From: Pseudomonadota bacterium
Lineage (GTDB): Bacteria; Pseudomonadota; Alphaproteobacteria; GCA-2731375
NCBI GenBank assembly: GCA_027623205.1
Contig: JAQBYC010000015.1
Location: 1-56,424 of the forward strand
Direction of reading: 5' to 3'
Length of the DNA stretch: 56,424 bases
The notes beneath the pieces were generated by a model that ran no database searches, was not told the DNA's origin, and saw only the letters and a program-made list of their open reading frames with translations. The position numbers were made by a program, and so were the translations under genes. This document shows positions 121 to 56,424 of this stretch, one piece after another. Position 1 is the stretch's first letter, and each line of letters starts with the position of its first letter.

Positions 121-223
121 AGAGCAATTCTCAATCAAACGGATTCGCTTTAGGGATCCAAGGGATTGGTTCAATTTCTCTTTTCTCAAGAATCCGAGCA
201 TGTTTAGAAGAAACATGCTCTAG
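121..223. repeat. Dispersed ~103-bp intergenic repeat, copy 1
   Basis: It starts AGAGCAATTCTCAATCAAAC and ends with a perfect 10-bp stem (196-205 with 211-220, loop AGAAG) followed by TAG. The ends AGAGCA and TGCTCT are mutually inverted. It fills almost the whole gap between the two flanking minus-strand genes. The stop codon of the downstream-reading amidohydrolase (complement of 220-222) lies in its GCTCTAG end. Copies 2-4 are at 15147, 32182 and 39132; copies 1 and 2 form one subtype. Confidence 0.9.
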
Positions 224-1254
224 GCGGTGCCATCAAGGCGATAAATCCGGGTGGCCGTGTCATGAAACAGCTTGGCTTTTTCGTCGGCCGAGAAGTCGGC
301 GGTCAAGCGCTTGAAACTGTTCCACAGGACATTGTAGCTGCAGGAAACCATATCCACGGGAAAATTGGACTCGAACATGCAACGATCCGGGCCAAACTGC
401 TCGATGGTATGGTCGTAGTATTGTCGCGTCGCCAGCATCAACTCTTCCGAGTTCGGCGGCCGGTCCTGTTCGTGCCAGGCAAAGCCATTCAACTCCATAT
501 TGATGCCGCCCAGCTTGGCCACCACGTTCTCGCAACGGGCCAGCGCCGTAATATCCTGTTGCCATTGGGCGAAATCCGCATCCCGCCTGCCTGCGTAAGG
601 GCCGATGCCAAGGGGGCCGCCAAAATGATCCAGAATGATGCTGGTGTCGGGAAAGGCCTGGGCCAATTCCGTCAGTTCACCGATTTGCGTGTGGTAGCAC
701 CAGCCTTCAAAGCTCATGTCATGGCGCGCCAGATGGGCGAAGCCTTGGCGGAAATTATCCTGTTGGTACAGATGTTGCGGCGGATTGCAGCGGGCATTGG
801 GTACGTCGGCGGAGGCATCCCAGGTACAGGAGTGGCGAATGCCGCGAAAGCGCCCGCCGCCCGCAATGGTATGCGCGGCCAGCACCGGCGCCACGTCATC
901 GCCCAGGCACAGATCCGCATGGCCGACGATACCGGCGGCGATACGGGCCTTGCCATATTGTCCGCTGGCGCTCATGGCCGCGATGCCGTTGACGAATTCG
1001 GTCTCGCCAAGCATCCGCAGGGGTGCCGGGCCATCGGCCTTGACCATGGCGCCGCATTCGATGAAGACGGTGGAAACCACGTTATGGCCGCAATTCACAT
1101 CGGCCAGGATCTCGTCCAGCAGATAGCGGTGGGCGACCCGGCTGTGCACGAAATCCCAAAGATGATGATGCGGATCGCAGATTGGCAGTTCCGGATCCAG
1201 AGTCTCTTCCGCAACCTGTGCCAGCCAATCGGCATTCGTTGATTTCGTCGCCAT
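220..1254 (-). CDS. Amidohydrolase-2 family metal-dependent hydrolase
   Basis: 344-aa TIM-barrel hydrolase of the amidohydrolase-2 group (relatives include 2-pyrone-4,6-dicarboxylate lactonase and ACMSD-like enzymes). The N-terminal metal motif is seen as DPHHHLWDF at residues 27-35. Later metal/catalytic regions are ILDHFGGP (about residue 207) and CMFESNFPVD near the C-terminus, where the Asp-containing loop is expected. There is no signal peptide, so it is cytoplasmic. It probably cleaves a lactone or C-C bond of a carboxylated compound; the substrate is not readable. The ATG at 1254 is preceded by a GGAG-type ribosome site (complement of 1262-1267). Its TAG stop is supplied by repeat copy 1. 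Confidence 0.85.
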   Translation of the reverse strand: MATKSTNADWLAQVAEETLDPELPICDPHHHLWDFVHSRVAHRYLLDEILADVNCGHNVVSTVFIECGAMVKADGPAPLRMLGETEFVNGIAAMSASGQYGKARIAAGIVGHADLCLGDDVAPVLAAHTIAGGGRFRGIRHSCTWDASADVPNARCNPPQHLYQQDNFRQGFAHLARHDMSFEGWCYHTQIGELTELAQAFPDTSIILDHFGGPLGIGPYAGRRDADFAQWQQDITALARCENVVAKLGGINMELNGFAWHEQDRPPNSEELMLATRQYYDHTIEQFGPDRCMFESNFPVDMVSCSYNVLWNSFKRLTADFSADEKAKLFHDTATRIYRLDGTA

Positions 1255-13422: not shown

Positions 13423-14244
13423 ATGCCCGCCGCCGCCGATGCCGAGCTTATCCCCCTGCCACGACGCTGGAAGCGGCCGCCGCTGATCAAATCGGCGCGT
13501 TTACGATGGTCGCTTGGGATTTGCGCGGCGCTCTATCTCGCTGCGGCCTTCGGTACCATCGAGGTCAACTGGCTCCGCGTATGGGCAGGTCTGGACCGTG
13601 GCTGGGCCTTTGTCCTGGGCTTCATGAACCCGGACTTCGTCAGCCATTGGGCTGACATCAAGGAAGGCATATTGGAGAGCCTGGTCATGACCGTGACGTC
13701 GACGGCGATCGGTATCTTGATCTCCGTGCCGATCGGGCTTGGCGCCGCGCGCAATATCGCGCCCTTGCCGGTATATCTTTTCTGCCGCGGTATCATCGCG
13801 CTTTCGCGCAGTTTCCAGGAAGTCATCATCGCTATTCTGTTCGTTGCGATCTTCGGCTTCGGGCCGTTCGCGGGCGTCGCGACCCTGTCTTTCGCCACCA
13901 TTGGTTTTCTGGCCAAACTGCTGGCCGAGGATATAGAGGATTCCCGCGCCGACCAGTTGGAGGCTATCCGTGCGACCGGATCAAGCTGGCCGCAACTGAT
14001 GAACTATGCCGTGCAACCGCAAGTCATGCCGCGTCTGATTGGCTTGTCCATGTATCGGCTGGACATAAATTTCCGCGAATCGGCGGTGGTCGGCCTGGTC
14101 GGAGCGGGCGGTATTGGCGCGACCCTGAACACCTCGTTCGACCGGTACGAATTCGGCACCACGGCAGCCATTCTCATCACCATCATCGTGATTGTTATAC
14201 TGGCCGAATACGCCTCCGGCATGATCCGCGCGAGGTTACAGTGA
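13423..14244 (+). CDS. phnE: Phosphonate-type ABC transporter permease 1
   Basis: 273-aa inner-membrane permease with about six hydrophobic segments. The EAA coupling loop is visible in QLEAIRATGSSWPQLMNYAVQPQ. FRESAVVGLVGAGGIGATLN is the conserved C-terminal PhnE motif. It forms the translocation channel together with the next gene, as is usual for phnE1-phnE2 systems. Its TGA overlaps the start of the second permease. Confidence 0.9.
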   Translation: MPAAADAELIPLPRRWKRPPLIKSARLRWSLGICAALYLAAAFGTIEVNWLRVWAGLDRGWAFVLGFMNPDFVSHWADIKEGILESLVMTVTSTAIGILISVPIGLGAARNIAPLPVYLFCRGIIALSRSFQEVIIAILFVAIFGFGPFAGVATLSFATIGFLAKLLAEDIEDSRADQLEAIRATGSSWPQLMNYAVQPQVMPRLIGLSMYRLDINFRESAVVGLVGAGGIGATLNTSFDRYEFGTTAAILITIIVIVILAEYASGMIRARLQ

Positions 14245-15059
14245 TGCCGGTTTCCAGCGTCGGCGAAATTCAGGTCTGGCACCGCCGCGCGCGCGGCAAA
14301 CAGCTTGCCATCTGGTTCGGCTGGCTCTGTGGTGTCGCCCTGTTCATGTTTTGCTGGAATATCATCTCCGAGAAGACGACCTGGTTTTTCGTCTTTGATG
14401 CGCCGCGCATCGTCGGTGATATATCATCGCGCATGTTCCCGCCACGCTGGTCCTATGCCGAAAAACTTTGGCTGCCGATCTGGGATACCATGAACATCGC
14501 CACGCTGGGCACTATATTTTCCATTGTCATGGCGGTGCCGGTGGCATTTCTGGCGGCGCGCAACACCACGCCGAGCGCCAAATTCGTACGCCCTGTGGCG
14601 TTGTTAATCATCGTGTCTTCGCGTTCCATCAATTCCCTGATTTGGGCCTTGTTGCTGGTTTCCATCGTCGGGCCCGGCCTGTTCGCCGGCGTCATCGCCA
14701 TTTCCCTGCGTTCGATCGGCTTTGTCGCCAAACTTCTGTACGAGGCGATCGAGGAAATCGACCAGAACCAGGTAGAGGCCATCGAGGCGACCGGGGCCAG
14801 CCGTATCCAGGTCATCGCCTTTGGCATCGTGCCGCAGATCATGCCCGCCTTCGCCGGCATCACGGTGTTCCGCTGGGACATTAATATCCGCGAATCCACG
14901 GTGCTGGGTCTGGTCGGCGCGGGCGGCATTGGTTTGCAATTGCAGGCTTCCCTCAACGTCCTGGCGTGGCCCCAGGTGACATTGATCCTGATGGCGATCC
15001 TATGTTTCGTGCTGGCCAGCGAGTTGGTCAGCGCCCGGGTCCGCAAGGCGATTATTTGA
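14244..15059 (+). CDS. phnE: Phosphonate-type ABC transporter permease 2
   Basis: 271 aa from the ATG at 14244, whose A is the last base of the upstream TGA; GTG 14241 is an alternative. It is a multi-pass permease with the coupling loop NQVEAIEATGASRIQVIAFGIVPQ and the conserved IRESTVLGLVGAGGIGLQLQ. It is a paralogue of the preceding gene. No phosphonate lyase (phnG-M), phnX/phnW or phosphite dehydrogenase follows. After its stop the strand enters a 308-bp gap holding repeat copy 2. Confidence 0.9.
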   Translation: MPVSSVGEIQVWHRRARGKQLAIWFGWLCGVALFMFCWNIISEKTTWFFVFDAPRIVGDISSRMFPPRWSYAEKLWLPIWDTMNIATLGTIFSIVMAVPVAFLAARNTTPSAKFVRPVALLIIVSSRSINSLIWALLLVSIVGPGLFAGVIAISLRSIGFVAKLLYEAIEEIDQNQVEAIEATGASRIQVIAFGIVPQIMPAFAGITVFRWDINIRESTVLGLVGAGGIGLQLQASLNVLAWPQVTLILMAILCFVLASELVSARVRKAII

Positions 15060-15146: not shown

Positions 15147-15251
15147 TGGCGCAATTTTCAGTCAATTGGATTCGCTTTAATGATCCAGGTGACTGGTTCG
15201 ATAGCTCTTTTCTTAAAAGTCCGAGCATGTATAGAAGAAACATGCTCTAGG
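15147..15251. repeat. Dispersed ~103-bp intergenic repeat, copy 2
   Basis: It is close to copy 1 along its full length (shared GGATTCGCTTTA, TCTTTTCT and the terminal hairpin). The terminal stem GAGCATGTAT / AAACATGCTC has one mismatch and keeps the loop AGAAG and the following TAG. It has lost the first bases of the AGAGCAATT end, which here reads GCGCAATT. It lies between the PhnE stop and the FNR-like box and touches no gene. Confidence 0.88.
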
Positions 15252-31659: not shown

Positions 31660-32199
31660 ATGAGCCAGTATGGAAGCGCCGTCGAATGCGCCCTGCATTG
31701 TCTGTTGTATGTGGCGCGTGCCGATGAAGGCGGCGCGCGCAGCGCCCGTGATGTCGCCGCATTTCAAAAGCTGTCCGCGGATTATGTCGCGAAGCTTTTC
31801 ACGCGCATGCAGAAGGCCGGACTGGTTACTGCGACCGAAGGGTTGCACGGCGGCTTCCGCCTGGCGCGGGGGCGGGAAGAGATCTCGGTTCTGGACGTCG
31901 TCGACGCGGTTGAAGGATACAAGCCGCTGTTCGTATGCCGCGAAATTCGCGCCAACTGCGTGCTGTTCGACGGTGGCAAGCCTGCCTGGGCCGGGCGCGG
32001 CGTCTGCGCCATTCATGCGGCCATGCTGCGGGCGGATGCGGCCATGCGGGATAGCCTGGCAGAGACAAATTTGGCGCAACTTTCAGAGCATGTCGCCCAT
32101 GTGGTGCCAAAGGCGCAGCAGAAGGCGGCACAGAATTGGTTTCAGGAGCAAGGCGCCGCCCGTGGGCGCGGTGCGCGGACGAGAGCAATATTCAATTAA
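31660..32199 (+). CDS. Rrf2 family transcriptional regulator
   Basis: 179 aa. The N-terminal winged helix reads MSQYGSAVECALHCLLYVA then LSADYVAKLFTRMQKAGLV and GLHGGFRLAR, the standard Rrf2 pattern. Three cysteines, Cys93, Cys100 and Cys116, fit the Fe-S ligand set of NsrR/IscR-like sensors. It therefore probably senses NO, redox or iron-sulfur status. The last five residues (R-A-I-F-N) and the TAA are encoded by repeat copy 3. The NADH-dehydrogenase-like gene downstream is the obvious target. Confidence 0.88.
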   Translation: MSQYGSAVECALHCLLYVARADEGGARSARDVAAFQKLSADYVAKLFTRMQKAGLVTATEGLHGGFRLARGREEISVLDVVDAVEGYKPLFVCREIRANCVLFDGGKPAWAGRGVCAIHAAMLRADAAMRDSLAETNLAQLSEHVAHVVPKAQQKAAQNWFQEQGAARGRGARTRAIFN

Positions 32200-32285
32200 T
32201 CGGAGTCGCGTTCGCGGCTTAAGTAAATGGTTCAATTGCTCTAATCTTAAGGAGTCTGCGCATGTTTTTGGGAAACATGCTCTAG
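32182..32285. repeat. Dispersed ~103-bp intergenic repeat, copy 3
   Basis: It begins AGAGCAATATTCAATTAATC and ends in a stem GCGCATGTTT / AAACATGCTC (one mismatch) followed by TAG. It belongs to the second subtype with copy 4 (shared GAGTCGCG and CTTAAGTAA). Its left end encodes the last five residues and stop of the Rrf2 protein. Its right end supplies TAGGAG, the only ribosome-site-like sequence before ATG 32293 of the next gene. Confidence 0.9.
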
Positions 32286-32292
32286 GAGTTGG

Positions 32293-33492
32293 ATGATGCC
32301 GGATTTATTGATCATTGGTGGCGGCTATGCCGGCGTCTGGGCGGCCATGGCGGCCGCCGGCCGGGCCCGGGACAGCAAAGCGGCGTTGAACATTTGCCTG
32401 TTATCCAGAGATGCCTATTTGACCCATCGCCCACGCCTGTATGAATGCAGGCCGCAGGACATGCGCACGCCCCTGGTGCAGGTCTTGGAGCCGATTGGCG
32501 TCAGGCTGGCGTTGGGAGAGGTTATGGCCATTGATGCGGGGCAACGGCGGGTTCAGGCGCAAGGCGAAGATGGCGGCGCCATGATGTATGGCTACGACGG
32601 CCTGATACTGGCGGCGGGCAGTGTACCGCGCCCGGCGCCCTGGGAGCTGAGCAATGCCCGAACCTGGAACATTGATAGCTATCATGGCGCCGTGGAACTG
32701 GACCGGCACCTAAAGGACCTGTTGGCCGCGCCGGAGCCTGCGGGGCATGAGGATACCGTGGTGATTATCGGCGCCGGCTTCACCGGCATTGAGCTGGCAG
32801 CCGAAATGCGTGCCCGTCTGGCCGAACATGGCGGTGTGGCGCGGGCGGACCGGGCGCGGGTGATTTTGATTGATGCGGCTGCCAGGGTCAGCGAAGACCT
32901 GGGGCCCGGGCCGCGCCCCCATATATTGGCGGCGTTGCAAACAGCCCGGGTGGAGCTTCGCCTGAGCGAAAAAGTCCGCCGGATCGAAGGCGACCAGGTT
33001 TTTCTGGACGATGGCAGCCAAATTTCTGCCGCAACGGTGATCGTCACGACCGGTGTCCAGGCCAATGAATTGGCCGCCAGTCTTGGCCTGGAAACCGATC
33101 CATCCGGGCGATTGCTGGTGGACGCGAATTTGCGGGTCAAAGGGGTGCAAGGCATTCATGCCGCCGGCGACATGGCGCACGCACTGACCGACGCCAGCCA
33201 TGTGGCCCTGATGTCCTGCCAGCACGCCATGCCCATGGGCAAATTTGCCGGCTACAACGCCGCCTCGGAACTTTTGAACCTGCCGCCGTTACCGTATCAA
33301 CAGCCGATTTACCGGACCTGTCTGGACTTGGGCCAGTGGGGGGCGGTCTTTTCCACCGGCTGGGACCGACAGGTGGAAATGGTCAAAGAGGCGGCCAAGG
33401 CGCGCAAACGATTCATCAATACCGAGGTGATTTATCCCCCCACGAATGACCGCGAGGCAATCCTGGCGGCCGGCACCATCCAATCCGCCTAG
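32293..33492 (+). CDS. FAD/NAD(P)-dependent oxidoreductase, type II NADH dehydrogenase-like
   Basis: 399 aa (ATG 32293 or 32296). The FAD-binding motif is IIGGGYAGVWAA near residue 7, and the NAD(P)-binding motif VVIIGAGFTGIEL begins near 156. The flavin-contacting GIHAAGDMA follows near 293. Length and architecture fit NDH-2 / pyridine nucleotide-disulfide reductases, which transfer electrons from NADH to quinone at the membrane without proton pumping. It follows an Rrf2-type Fe-S regulator, consistent with respiratory redox control. Its TAG coincides with the first bases of the inverted-repeat element. Confidence 0.82.
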   Translation: MMPDLLIIGGGYAGVWAAMAAAGRARDSKAALNICLLSRDAYLTHRPRLYECRPQDMRTPLVQVLEPIGVRLALGEVMAIDAGQRRVQAQGEDGGAMMYGYDGLILAAGSVPRPAPWELSNARTWNIDSYHGAVELDRHLKDLLAAPEPAGHEDTVVIIGAGFTGIELAAEMRARLAEHGGVARADRARVILIDAAARVSEDLGPGPRPHILAALQTARVELRLSEKVRRIEGDQVFLDDGSQISAATVIVTTGVQANELAASLGLETDPSGRLLVDANLRVKGVQGIHAAGDMAHALTDASHVALMSCQHAMPMGKFAGYNAASELLNLPPLPYQQPIYRTCLDLGQWGAVFSTGWDRQVEMVKEAAKARKRFINTEVIYPPTNDREAILAAGTIQSA

Positions 33493-33590
33493 ACCATTTT
33501 CGAGGTTGACTTACCCACCCGCTCCCCCTCCCGACCACCCACAGGATTATGATCAATGGGTGGTCGGGAGGGGGAGCGGGTGGCTCTGCG
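33490..33590. repeat. Long-hairpin element, copy A (27-bp perfect arms)
   Basis: After TAGACCATTTTCGAG come two perfectly inverted 27-bp arms, 33515-33541 and 33557-33583, rich in CCACCC/CTCCCCCTCCC, separated by a 15-nt loop carrying CAGGATTATGATC. It sits between convergent genes and may act as a bidirectional transcription block. The second copy is at 56315-56424. Confidence 0.92.
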
Positions 33591-33597
33591 ACACGCT

Positions 33598-34344
33598 CTA
33601 AAGCAATTCCACCGTGCCGCCCAAGGTCAGACCCAGCTGTTGCGCGGCGCTACCCTGGTTGACCGCTATTTCCACCAGACCATTGGCATTTTCATACCAG
33701 AAGGCCTGACCCACCGGCACAGCGCCAAAGGTCCGCGCCTGTGTCAGTTCCTGGCCATTGATCCGCACGGCCTGGCCGGGTGTCAGGCCGGCTGCGCGCA
33801 GGCCGGTGATGGCGTTGCCGAAATCGTCCAGATAGATGACTTCAGCCAGATCGTCTGGCCAGTCCGGGTGGCGCCAATCCGCGTCCGGGATTGGCGCCGT
33901 CGCCAACTCGTCGCCGCGGGCATAGGCCGCTGCAACCGGGGCAAACAGATCGCGGCCATGAAACGAGGCGGATAGATGGTCGGGCCGCCAGGCGATCGCC
34001 TGGGCCCCGATCTCAACCGCCTGCCGGGCGACGAGTTCCAACAGGCCGTTGCCGGGACCGACAAAAACCCGGCCATCGGCTTGTAGAACCATGGGCTGCC
34101 GGTCACCGCCGACGCCAGGATCGACCACACAGAGAAAAATCGTACCCGCGGGAAACTCTGGAGCGTAGGCGGCCAGCAGATAACTGGCGGCCCGGGCGTT
34201 GTAGGCGGGCGCGTCGGCGAATAGATCAATGATCGGCGAGCCCGGCGCATTGTGGCGCAGGACGGCCCGCATCTGCCCCATATATGGCCCTCGAATGCCA
34301 AAATCCGTGAACAGCACGATCATTGGCTGGGAGGCTACGGTCAT
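33598..34344 (-). CDS. SAM hydrolase / DUF62 (SAM hydroxide adenosyltransferase) family
   Basis: 248 aa of the fluorinase-fold DUF62 family. VLFTDFG with Asp14 contacts the SAM ribose, VVDPGVGG (73-80) and YLDDFGNAITG are conserved. These proteins split S-adenosylmethionine with water into adenosine and methionine; true fluorinases and chlorinases are rare relatives and nothing here indicates halide specificity. The gene begins 7 bp after the histidine kinase stop, so both are one transcription unit. Confidence 0.88.
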   Translation of the reverse strand: MTVASQPMIVLFTDFGIRGPYMGQMRAVLRHNAPGSPIIDLFADAPAYNARAASYLLAAYAPEFPAGTIFLCVVDPGVGGDRQPMVLQADGRVFVGPGNGLLELVARQAVEIGAQAIAWRPDHLSASFHGRDLFAPVAAAYARGDELATAPIPDADWRHPDWPDDLAEVIYLDDFGNAITGLRAAGLTPGQAVRINGQELTQARTFGAVPVGQAFWYENANGLVEIAVNQGSAAQQLGLTLGGTVELL

Positions 34345-39045: not shown

Positions 39046-39131
39046 TGTCGCCCCGCCATTCCATTTTGCTCCCATGCAATCATGATGGGCCAACATAGCG
39101 TAGCGCACGCACGGATCATACAGGGGTATTT

Positions 39132-39234
39132 AGAGCAATTTTCGACTAATTAGAGTCGCGGGCGCGACTTAAGTAATTGACTCTATTGCTGTTTTTTAAA
39201 GATTCTGAGCACATTTAGATTAAATGCGCTCTGG
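39132..39234. repeat. Dispersed ~103-bp intergenic repeat, copy 4
   Basis: It begins AGAGCAATTTTCGACTAATT and ends in the hairpin 39207-39216 / 39222-39231. Against copy 1 the stem shows two paired (compensatory) substitutions and one mismatch. It is of the same subtype as copy 3. Its right end encodes the last three residues (E-R-I) and the TAA of the DUF2336 protein on the minus strand. Confidence 0.9.
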
Positions 39235-40425
39235 TGGCGGAGCGAAACCATTCGATGGCGTCGGGGGGGCGGCTTTTGCCGTTGTCTCGACGTCTGCTTG
39301 GGGTTGGTTGCGAATGGCCCAAAACCGCATGGCGCGCTGTGCGTTCTCGATGGGAATTTGATTGTACAGATCCAATAGAGTGGCCACTTCTTCCGGCCGG
39401 CGCAGTTGTTTTTTCACGGCGCCGGTGGCGCTGATTTCAGAGCTGCCGCCTTCCGTTGCGCCTTCCAGCAATAGCACGATGGTAGAAAACGTGGAGAGAT
39501 CAAAGCGTTTGGCCCGGCAGGCCACGGCAACGGCCTCATGACCCGGGTTAAGGACGATGCGCCTGGCCGTTTTCTGATCGATATCCGTCAAATAGCCCAG
39601 GGCGGCGATAAACTCCGGCACCTGGCCTCGGCGCAAATATTGCACCAGGGAATCCTGGTTCAACTGGCCCAGGCGCATGCGCCGGCGCACTGTCCGTTCC
39701 ACCCGGTTCAGGCTTTCCTCATCTTCTTCATTCGCCCCCATCATGCCGCGTTCGGCTTCCACCAGCATCTGATCGACCAGCTTTTCGTCAATATCCGCGT
39801 CGGTCATGATCTGTCTCTTTAGCGCGGCGCTGACCCACCAGAACATATCGTGCATCAAGTCGGGGGGTAAATCCTTGCGGCTCAATAGCGGTTCCCATAG
39901 CGCCGCGCCCGATTCCGAGCGGCCAACGATGGATTCCATGGCGCCGCGCGAAATCTTGGCGTGATCATTGCTGACCAGCGATAGCACCACCTCATCATCG
40001 CCCTTGGTAACCAGGGCATCGGCCACTTTCGCGCTGACTTCGGATCGGATCGAAATCGATAGCTGGTGGTCCTTGCCATGTTTGTTGACGATGTCGATCA
40101 GATCCTGATCGCTCAACCCGCCGTTGCGCTCCAGCAAGGGCCGGGCGACCTGGATATCGTCGTTGGCAAGCTGGCGAATAAGCGCGACGGGCGCATTATC
40201 GAGGTCTGCCAGGCGATTGCTCAAACGGGCGCGAACTTCGCGTTCAACCTCTGTCGCAACCCGGCCCAGGATATCGGCTGCGATCTCCGCTTCCTGTTCA
40301 TTCAGCACCGGACCGCCGTCGAGAAACAGGTCCGCGACACCTTCCAGCAGTTCGCGCCGCTTGTCCGACGAGGTCTCTTGGGCCACATCGATAAGATTTT
40401 CAAGTTTGCTTGTGCGTGGCGACAT
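39220..40425 (-). CDS. DUF2336 domain-containing protein
   Basis: 401-aa soluble, acidic, helical-repeat protein. The N-terminal section (RRELLEGVADLFLDGGPVLNEQEAEIAADILGRVATEVEREVRARLS) is the hallmark of DUF2336, a family of alphaproteobacteria with no firm function and suggested links to signalling. No catalytic motif is visible. The final three residues and stop codon fall inside repeat copy 4. It stands alone between speE and tRNA-Gly. Confidence 0.85.
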   Translation of the reverse strand: MSPRTSKLENLIDVAQETSSDKRRELLEGVADLFLDGGPVLNEQEAEIAADILGRVATEVEREVRARLSNRLADLDNAPVALIRQLANDDIQVARPLLERNGGLSDQDLIDIVNKHGKDHQLSISIRSEVSAKVADALVTKGDDEVVLSLVSNDHAKISRGAMESIVGRSESGAALWEPLLSRKDLPPDLMHDMFWWVSAALKRQIMTDADIDEKLVDQMLVEAERGMMGANEEDEESLNRVERTVRRRMRLGQLNQDSLVQYLRRGQVPEFIAALGYLTDIDQKTARRIVLNPGHEAVAVACRAKRFDLSTFSTIVLLLEGATEGGSSEISATGAVKKQLRRPEEVATLLDLYNQIPIENAQRAMRFWAIRNQPQADVETTAKAAPPTPSNGFAPPPERI

Positions 40426-48158: not shown

Positions 48159-49745
48159 ATGCGTGATTTCCAGCTTCCCGGCCGGTCCACCGTCCATTCC
48201 ACCAACGGCATGGCGGCTACCTCTCATCCCCTCAGCACCCTGGCCGCGCTTGATGTATTGCGCCGGGGCGGCAACGCGGTTGATGCCGCCGTCAGCGCCT
48301 GTGCCGTGCAATGCGTGGTGGAACCCATGTCCACCGGCATCGGCGGCGATTGCTTTGCCCTGCTGGCCCCTGGCGGCGGACCCGAAGTCATCGGCATGAA
48401 CGGCTCCGGCTGGGCGCCCAAGGCGTTGACGGCGGAACATTTGCTGCAACAGGGGATTTCCAGCATTGATGTGCAGTCGCCCCATTCAGTATCCGTACCC
48501 GGAGCGATCGATGCCTGGGACACGCTATTGCGGGATCATGGCACCATCGATCTGGATCAGGCTTTGCAGCCGGCCATCGGCTATGCCGAGGATGGCTGGG
48601 CGGTGACGCCGCGTATTGCCAATGATTGGGCCCGCAACGTAGCGAAACTGTCGGTGGATGCGTCATCTGCAGCGAAGTATCTGGCTAATGGGCAGGCGCC
48701 GAAAGCGGGCGAAACCTGGCGCCTGCCAGAGTTGGCGGAAACCTTGCGCACCATCGCCAGGGTGGGCCGGAGTGGTTTCTACGAAGGCTGGGTCGCCGAG
48801 GATATTGTGGAACATCTGGGCCGCCTGGGTGGTTGTCATGCCCTAGACGATCTGGCGGAAATGCGCGGTGAATACGTCACCCCCATTTCGACCGACTACC
48901 GTGGCCATACAATGCTGCAAATCCCGCCCAACGGTCAGGGCATCACCGCTCTTATGATGCTGAATATTTTGGCGGAATACGATCTGGCCAGCATGGACCC
49001 GCATGGTGTCGCGCGCCTGCATTTGGAGACCGAGGCATCCCGCATGGCCTATGCCGCCCGGGACCGCTATGTCGCCGACCAGCGCCAGGCGGACGTTCCC
49101 GTCGAGCATCTGCTGTCGGCGGCATTCGCGGCCGAGATGCGGGCCCAGATCAGCCCCGACCGCGCCGTTACCGCACCGGAGGCGACCGGTCCGGCGTATC
49201 GCGACACCATTTACTTGAGCGTGGTGGACAAGGACCGCAATGCTTGCTCCTTTATCAACTCGCTCTATATGCCGTTCGGGTCCGGCCTGACGGCGCCGCG
49301 TTCGGGCGTGCTATTGCAAAATCGCGGCGCCGGTTTCCGGGTCGAACCAGGTCATCCCAACAATGTCGCCCCGCGTAAACGGCCCCTGCACACGATTATT
49401 CCCGGCATGTGCATGAAGGACGGCAAAGTCGCCTACGCCTACGGCGTCATGGGCGGCGGCTATCAGCCCGTTGGCCACGCTCACGTTCTCACCAACATGA
49501 TCGATTTTGGCATGGATCCCCAGGAAGCCCTGGACAGCCCACGGGTTTTCCACATTGCCGGGCGCCTGGACGTGGAAAGAGGTCTGGGCGAGGACGTGAT
49601 GGCCGGACTGGCGGCGCTTGGCCACGCAGTAGGCCGGCCGGAAATGCCCTGGGGCGGCGGTCAGATCATCGCCATCGATTGGGAAAACGGCACGCTGATT
49701 GGTGGCTCTGACCCGCGCAAGGACGGCTGCGCCCTGGGTTATTAG
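48159..49745 (+). CDS. Gamma-glutamyltransferase-like N-terminal nucleophile hydrolase
   Basis: 528 aa. STNGMAATSHPLSTLAALDVLRRGGNAVDAAV is the family start. The autoprocessing nucleophile is Thr350 in RDTIYLSVVD. Compared with the E. coli sequence as I recall it, the neighbouring TTHYS has become TIYLS. The glycine-rich GVMGGGYQPVGHAHVL follows. No signal peptide is seen, so the protein is predicted cytoplasmic, unlike classical periplasmic GGT, and may cleave another amide (as in acylase-type paralogues). It begins 36 bp after the kinase gene. Confidence 0.88.
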   Translation: MRDFQLPGRSTVHSTNGMAATSHPLSTLAALDVLRRGGNAVDAAVSACAVQCVVEPMSTGIGGDCFALLAPGGGPEVIGMNGSGWAPKALTAEHLLQQGISSIDVQSPHSVSVPGAIDAWDTLLRDHGTIDLDQALQPAIGYAEDGWAVTPRIANDWARNVAKLSVDASSAAKYLANGQAPKAGETWRLPELAETLRTIARVGRSGFYEGWVAEDIVEHLGRLGGCHALDDLAEMRGEYVTPISTDYRGHTMLQIPPNGQGITALMMLNILAEYDLASMDPHGVARLHLETEASRMAYAARDRYVADQRQADVPVEHLLSAAFAAEMRAQISPDRAVTAPEATGPAYRDTIYLSVVDKDRNACSFINSLYMPFGSGLTAPRSGVLLQNRGAGFRVEPGHPNNVAPRKRPLHTIIPGMCMKDGKVAYAYGVMGGGYQPVGHAHVLTNMIDFGMDPQEALDSPRVFHIAGRLDVERGLGEDVMAGLAALGHAVGRPEMPWGGGQIIAIDWENGTLIGGSDPRKDGCALGY

Positions 49746-49975
49746 AGCAGATTCGGATGCTATCGCCAAAGCGTGCACTATCCTGCCGCTGACAACATTC
49801 GGCATGCGCTAGAAAGCGGCAAACAGCCTCATCGCGTTGGCGCCTATGGGCGAAGCAGGCAGCGCCGATCATTGGATCGATCGATACCATCGGCGCGGCC
49901 ATTCGACCAAGAGGCGGTATTTATTTCATTGTCTGAGGGAAGCTGGAGCGACGTCCGTTTTTCAGAAGGGTTCGC

Positions 49976-56314: not shown

Positions 56315-56424
56315 TAGACCATTTTCGAGATTGACTTACCCACCCGCTCCCCCTCCCGACCACCCCCAGCAGCTCTTGGGATCATAATCCTGTGGGTGGT
56401 CGGGAGGGGGAGCGGGTGGCTCGG
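56315..56424. repeat. Long-hairpin element, copy B (26-bp perfect arms)
   Basis: It has the same flank as copy A (TAGACCATTTTCGAG) and the same arms (56340-56365 and 56394-56419). The loop is 28 nt and carries GATCATAATCCTGT, which is the reverse complement of the loop sequence in copy A. The right border runs to the window edge. Confidence 0.92.

Follow-up and report, generated by a model that had tools for sequence, protein, structure and literature searches.

A repeat of about 101 bp, without a transposase gene but present at high copy number in the genome of an uncultured alphaproteobacterium, repeatedly occupies the 3' ends of genes. Typically the element inserts into a TAG or TAA stop codon that is already there and rebuilds it with its own first base, and does not donate a new C terminus to the neighboring gene. 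We consider it very likely that the repeat is a nonautonomous, IS630/Tc1-mariner-like MITE whose fixation at gene 3' ends reflects YTAR targeting, rebuilding of stop codons, and purging selection.

Results

Four copies of the repeat lie in the window, the whole stretch of 56,424 nucleotides that was analyzed, at positions 120 to 222, 15147 to 15249, 32181 to 32284, and 39131 to 39233 (all given on the plus strand and numbered here as copies 1 to 4). A first look at the 5.0-Mb genome produced 245 to 305 candidates. A profile search of 1.47 Mb of the same genome returned 126 copies, 104 of them full length, and 29 copies were present in 447 kb of contigs that had not been selected for carrying one. 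The repeat occurs in all 11 searched genomes of the genus, its own included, and in none of the 50 more distant genomes searched.

Alignment of 30 copies defined the core (GAGCAATTTTCAATCAATTGGATTCGCTTTAGCGATCCAAGTGATTGGTTCAATTGCTCTTTTCTTAAGAGTCCGAGCATGTTTAGAAGAAACATGCTC), with a flanking TA on each side, C or T usually preceding the left one and G or A following the right one. Both ends read GAGCA inward, and the terminal inverted repeats, GAGCAATTTTC and GAGCATGTTTC, match at 9 of 11 positions. Most copies are flanked by TA on both sides, a 2-bp target duplication, and because the flanks follow both a CTA...TAG and a TTA...TAA pattern, the duplicated target is the TA inside a YTAR palindrome, of which CTAG is the preferred form. 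Duplication of a 4-bp CTAG is ruled out by the TTA...TAA flanks. The repeat strand folds as two hairpins, at approximately -42 kcal/mol for each subfamily consensus. Two subfamilies, one young and one old, show compensating changes in their stems, with base pairs counted on the consensus fold, and old copies have lost both pairing and fold energy. Copy 1 in the window is of the young type, and copies 3 and 4 resemble the old subfamily. RNAalifold returned no structure for the set of 104 copies, and a search of Rfam with copy 3 found no family. This is the anatomy of an IS630/Tc1-mariner-type MITE, and the TA duplication points away from REP/BIME elements mobilized by RAYT.

Genes in the 1.47-Mb sample were called with our own hexamer-based script and not with a standard annotator. 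On these calls, 103 full-length copies could be classified, and 47 of them overlapped a gene by exactly 3 bases, which were the stop codon (TAG in 45 cases, TAA in 2). All 45 TAG codons are composed of the TA of the target and the first G of the element. A gene was ended at some other length, by 2 to 32 bases, in 8 copies, while 45 copies were intergenic and 3 overlapped a gene start. Despite approximately 1,960 YTAR sites internal to genes in this own-genome sample, no copy lay wholly inside a called gene. On the far side of exact-stop copies, the base beyond an intact TA was G in 15 cases, A in 7, and C in 1, so that the old stop, TAG in the first group and TAA in the second, is still there. 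Eight congener species gave the same picture, with 35 of 62 copies exactly at a stop, the far side reading TAG in 23 and TAA in 9, and two of these exact-stop copies serve two convergent genes at once. One congener copy (L246) was assigned two classes, internal to a weakly scored open reading frame and at the stop of a gene that scored well; the former frame is probably spurious. As a separate observation on the 1.47-Mb sample, TAG was the commonest stop codon (495 of 1,284 called genes), which is unusual for a bacterium of 60% GC, and insertion of the repeat explains only a small part of this excess.

The first-pass annotation, made from the letters of the window, had named a lack of enrichment of copies at stop codons as a refuting outcome and had suggested that insertion near stop codons may be targeted or selected. 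The enrichment was borne out by the counts above and by a null model: 23 of the 37 copies with intact junctions lie at stops, compared to 9.7 expected when target 4-mers are matched, and none of 200,000 simulations, which ran on the same gene calls as the observed counts, reached 23. Measured against other intergenic YTAR sites, the target-weighted rate was 4.8 at stop codons (95% interval, 2.9 to 8.8), 4.65 in the first 30 bases downstream, and 3.1 at 31 to 100 bases. The suggestion of targeting or selection near stops stands for this 3' zone but not for the stop codon as such: the target-weighted ratio of stop codons to the first 30 bases downstream is approximately 1.0 (95% interval, 0.6 to 2.1), so that it is the zone that is favored. 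Equal occupancy of the two led us to reject special targeting of stop codons themselves, which instead provide most of the good targets within the zone. Intergenic copies are also overrepresented between convergent genes, a setting that holds 9 of 41 copies versus 81 of 1,099 sites.

Within the window, copy 2 (15147 to 15249) is intergenic, 87 bases downstream of the gene at 14244 to 15059, and the other three copies overlap genes, as the first-pass annotation had stated. Copy 1, intact from TA to TA, was said to give the stop codon of an amidohydrolase gene (Amidohydro_2 in Pfam; 220 to 1254, minus strand). Literally it does, its right-hand TA and the element G forming the TAG at 220 to 222, but in element-free orthologues the stop falls at this codon as well. 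In ten congeners that lack the repeat, the protein ends at, or within a few residues of, this position; the tail reads ...IYRLDGTA TAG here, compared to ...IYRLDASA TAG in G010 and ...IYRLDNTA TAA in G007, both free of the repeat. At two exact-stop genes outside the window (C169 and C193), element-free orthologues also end at the same residue. These comparisons of filled and empty sites, made at the species level, indicate that at all three genes the stop was regenerated and not donated.

Copies 3 and 4 are old, decayed copies that altered the last few residues of their genes. Copy 3 (32181 to 32284), whose left TA has decayed to GA and whose right TA is intact at 32283 to 32284, does encode the terminal R-A-I-F-N and the TAA (32197 to 32199) of an Rrf2-type regulator gene (Pfam; 31660 to 32199, plus strand), as had been claimed, since the gene runs 17 bases into it. 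In Rrf2 orthologues, ...RGARNRG is followed by a TAG or TAA immediately ahead of the downstream gene, and this natural stop aligns with the TA+G at the right end of copy 3. The simplest reading of the alignment is that copy 3 inserted in the Rrf2 stop and that the left junction later suffered a small deletion, through which five extra codons came to be read. The same copy had been credited with the TAGGAG ribosome site (32283 to 32288) of the downstream NADH-dehydrogenase-like gene (Pyr_redox_2 in Pfam; 32293 to 33492, plus strand). Here the claim failed: the TA alone belongs to the target duplication, and because copies differ in what follows the TA, the GGAG (32285 to 32288, plus strand) is host DNA outside the repeat.

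Copy 4 (39131 to 39233) contains the codons for E-R-I and the TAA (39220 to 39222) of a minus-strand DUF2336 gene (Pfam; 39220 to 40425), also as first described. When the copy is removed in silico, the tail becomes PP-LNTPV, compared to PP-VTSSV in G002, and the sequence suggests that copy 4 replaced the last few codons after Pro-Pro and that PP-LNTPV was the former tail. The general proposal that the repeat supplies C termini is thus left with the few terminal residues changed by copies 3 and 4, as the genes at copy 1, C169, and C193 have the same C termini without it.

A second TA-bounded repeat family, marked by a long, near-perfect, GC-rich hairpin, occupies the overlapping stops of two convergent genes (33490 to 33600, plus strand). 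Both genes now end in a TAG formed at the repeat ends, the NADH-dehydrogenase-like gene at 33490 to 33492 and a gene of the SAM hydroxide adenosyltransferase type (SAM-HAT; Pfam; 33598 to 34281, minus strand) at 33598 to 33600. The flanks of this copy join to GCCTAAAGCAATTCCACC; G002, whose orthologous site is free of the element, has GCCTAAAGCAACTCCACC there, with the two stops overlapping. Further copies of the family also end genes with TAG. Another, at 56315 to 56424, runs to the end of the contig, several more sit at contig ends, and the family probably breaks assemblies. Matches to Rfam microRNA families were weak, below the cutoff, and confined to the hairpin of this second repeat. Elsewhere in the window, a gamma-glutamyltranspeptidase gene ends with TTAG followed by AGCAGATTCGG...CATGCGCTAG (49743 to 49815), apparently one more short, TA-bounded repeat placed at a stop codon. 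Several genes have TAG stops at which a third sequence begins, opening with TAGAGCGTGTCGCGGCTAATCTGA, for example near position 16580 of L052 (C216) and near 6190 of L058 (C33); this sequence is similar to an IS630 end in L160.

Discussion

We propose that the element inserts at the TA inside YTAR, best of all CTAG, and duplicates that TA, with both of its ends reading G-A-G-C inward. When the target TA opens a TAG or TAA stop codon, TA plus G restores TAG from either side and leaves the protein unchanged. CTAG is common at stop codons in this genome and rare inside genes. Selection would purge insertions in genes or near their starts, and those at stops and just downstream would survive. Later decay of a copy, by loss of a TA or a small indel, could extend a gene by a few codons of the element, as at copy 3, and an insertion a few codons early would replace the tail, as at copy 4. 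Target choice and purifying selection together probably explain most of the bias toward 3' ends, with purifying selection as its likely main cause.

The probable mover is a transposase of the IS630 type. In a congener, an IS630-type DDE_3 element of about 1.05 kb (L151) shares the setting of the repeat, C-TA-GAGCATTTCC ... C-TA-GAGCGTTTCC, and IS630 elements of G008 are bounded by C-TA-GAGC...GCTC-TA-G, with ends that match the repeat over about the first 5 to 6 bases only. Congener elements L151 and L160 resemble the repeat in their CTAG/TA target, with duplication of the TA inside CTAG, and in ends that begin GAGC, but they are about 1.05 kb long, carry a DDE_3 transposase, and match the repeat ends only in part. 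In its own genome, none of five DDE_3 (IS630) matches has the ends of the repeat, and a search of the 1.47-Mb sample for an autonomous element with its exact 11-base ends yielded chance pairs only.

It is possible, though doubtful, that beyond its TA target the transposition machinery is actively drawn to where transcription units end, with terminating polymerase, supercoiling, or hairpins as conceivable attractants. Occupancy does drop with distance, from 11% at the stop to 7 to 10% within 30 bases, 5 to 7% at 31 to 100 bases, and about 2% elsewhere, and this gradient persists after removal of sites in weak open reading frames and weighting for target sequence. At intergenic sites distant from all starts and stops, occupancy is only 1.9%, which is below the prediction of simple purifying selection unless such regions hold regulatory sequences or missed genes. 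However, purging of insertions from promoters and unannotated genes should produce such a gradient as well, and the excess between convergent genes also occurs in the pneumococcal repeats of Croucher et al. 2011, who describe a 3'-side bias too and read both as relaxed selection (PMC3049150). A more ambitious scenario, also unlikely in our judgment, is that a lineage of small transposons has evolved stop-codon-neutral integration, combining a preference for CTAG targets, active recruitment to gene 3' ends, and a terminal G by which TAG is restored at either end, including where convergent genes share a stop, making stop codons a genome-wide safe harbor.

A benefit to the host, in which the hairpins serve as terminators or stabilizers of mRNA 3' ends and are kept by positive selection, seems improbable. 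The strong two-hairpin fold, with its compensating changes between subfamilies, would suit such a role, as would the TTTTCTT that follows hairpin 1 in one orientation, but a T-run terminator works one way and the copies at stops have no orientation bias, with 47 genes entering the left end and 37 the right. An intrinsic terminator, which would take a fixed orientation to the gene, was rejected on these counts. The decay of pairing and fold energy in old copies likewise argues against such a benefit.

Domestication of copies as coding sequence that adds useful C-terminal residues, in the manner of Rickettsia palindromic elements, is very hard to sustain and as a general role of the repeat is largely refuted: copies 3 and 4 do contribute a few C-terminal codons, but only the 8 copies noted above end a gene other than exactly at its stop, and the affected tails lack conservation across orthologues. 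Scarcely credible, too, is an artifact of gene calling in which the TAG of the element happens to terminate spurious frames; it does stop every frame that enters in the first register, but the null used the same gene calls, the Pfam domains of the named genes in the window reach close to the stop, and repeat-free orthologues end at the same codon.

The repeat we interpret as an IS630/Tc1-mariner-like MITE has relatives in kind among described elements. The RUP of Streptococcus pneumoniae, a 107-bp MITE related to IS630-Spn1, is similar in length, hairpin fold, TA target, proposed IS630-like mover, and excess between convergent genes, but differs in having stops in all frames and in being reported near or in IS elements, and the excerpts of its reports do not describe exact-stop insertion with regeneration (PMC2229807, PMC3049150). 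Coxiella QMITE1 and QMITE2 are likewise TA-bounded MITEs, with overlaps of gene 3' ends of 1 to 50 bp, including 2-bp and 3-bp cases, and a listed C-terminal extension of EnhC; their overlaps, however, are of mixed length and left uninterpreted, and the excerpted report gives no stop-codon mechanism or enrichment (PMC5896051). Enterobacterial RU-1, RU-2, and RU-3 (ERIC-type) share TA duplications, hairpins, and some fusions to gene 3' ends, but long in-frame fusions dominate there (PMC2759123), whereas here the contacts nearly all span one codon. Correia-type elements are comparable in size, hairpins, and TA targets. Rickettsia palindromic elements are also palindromic alphaproteobacterial repeats that meet coding sequence, but they lie in frame inside genes, whose interiors the present repeat avoids; no coding insert of that type turned up, with 0 of 103 copies falling wholly within a called gene.

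The open-access literature yielded no account of an element of this kind regenerating a stop codon, which is weak evidence of absence. Size, hairpins, and TA target are already known from elsewhere, and exact insertion in stop codons with regeneration appears to be undescribed. The rule that emerges is that a CTAG target combined with an element starting with G turns each TAG or TAA stop into a protein-neutral insertion site. It predicts the same pattern for TA-targeting elements with a terminal G elsewhere, which can be tested in any genome with such repeats, as well as conversion of TAA to TAG upon insertion and change of gene 3' tails mainly through the decay of such copies. The repeat shows how such a parasite can multiply through a gene-dense genome without harm, with genes normally keeping both their stop and their protein.
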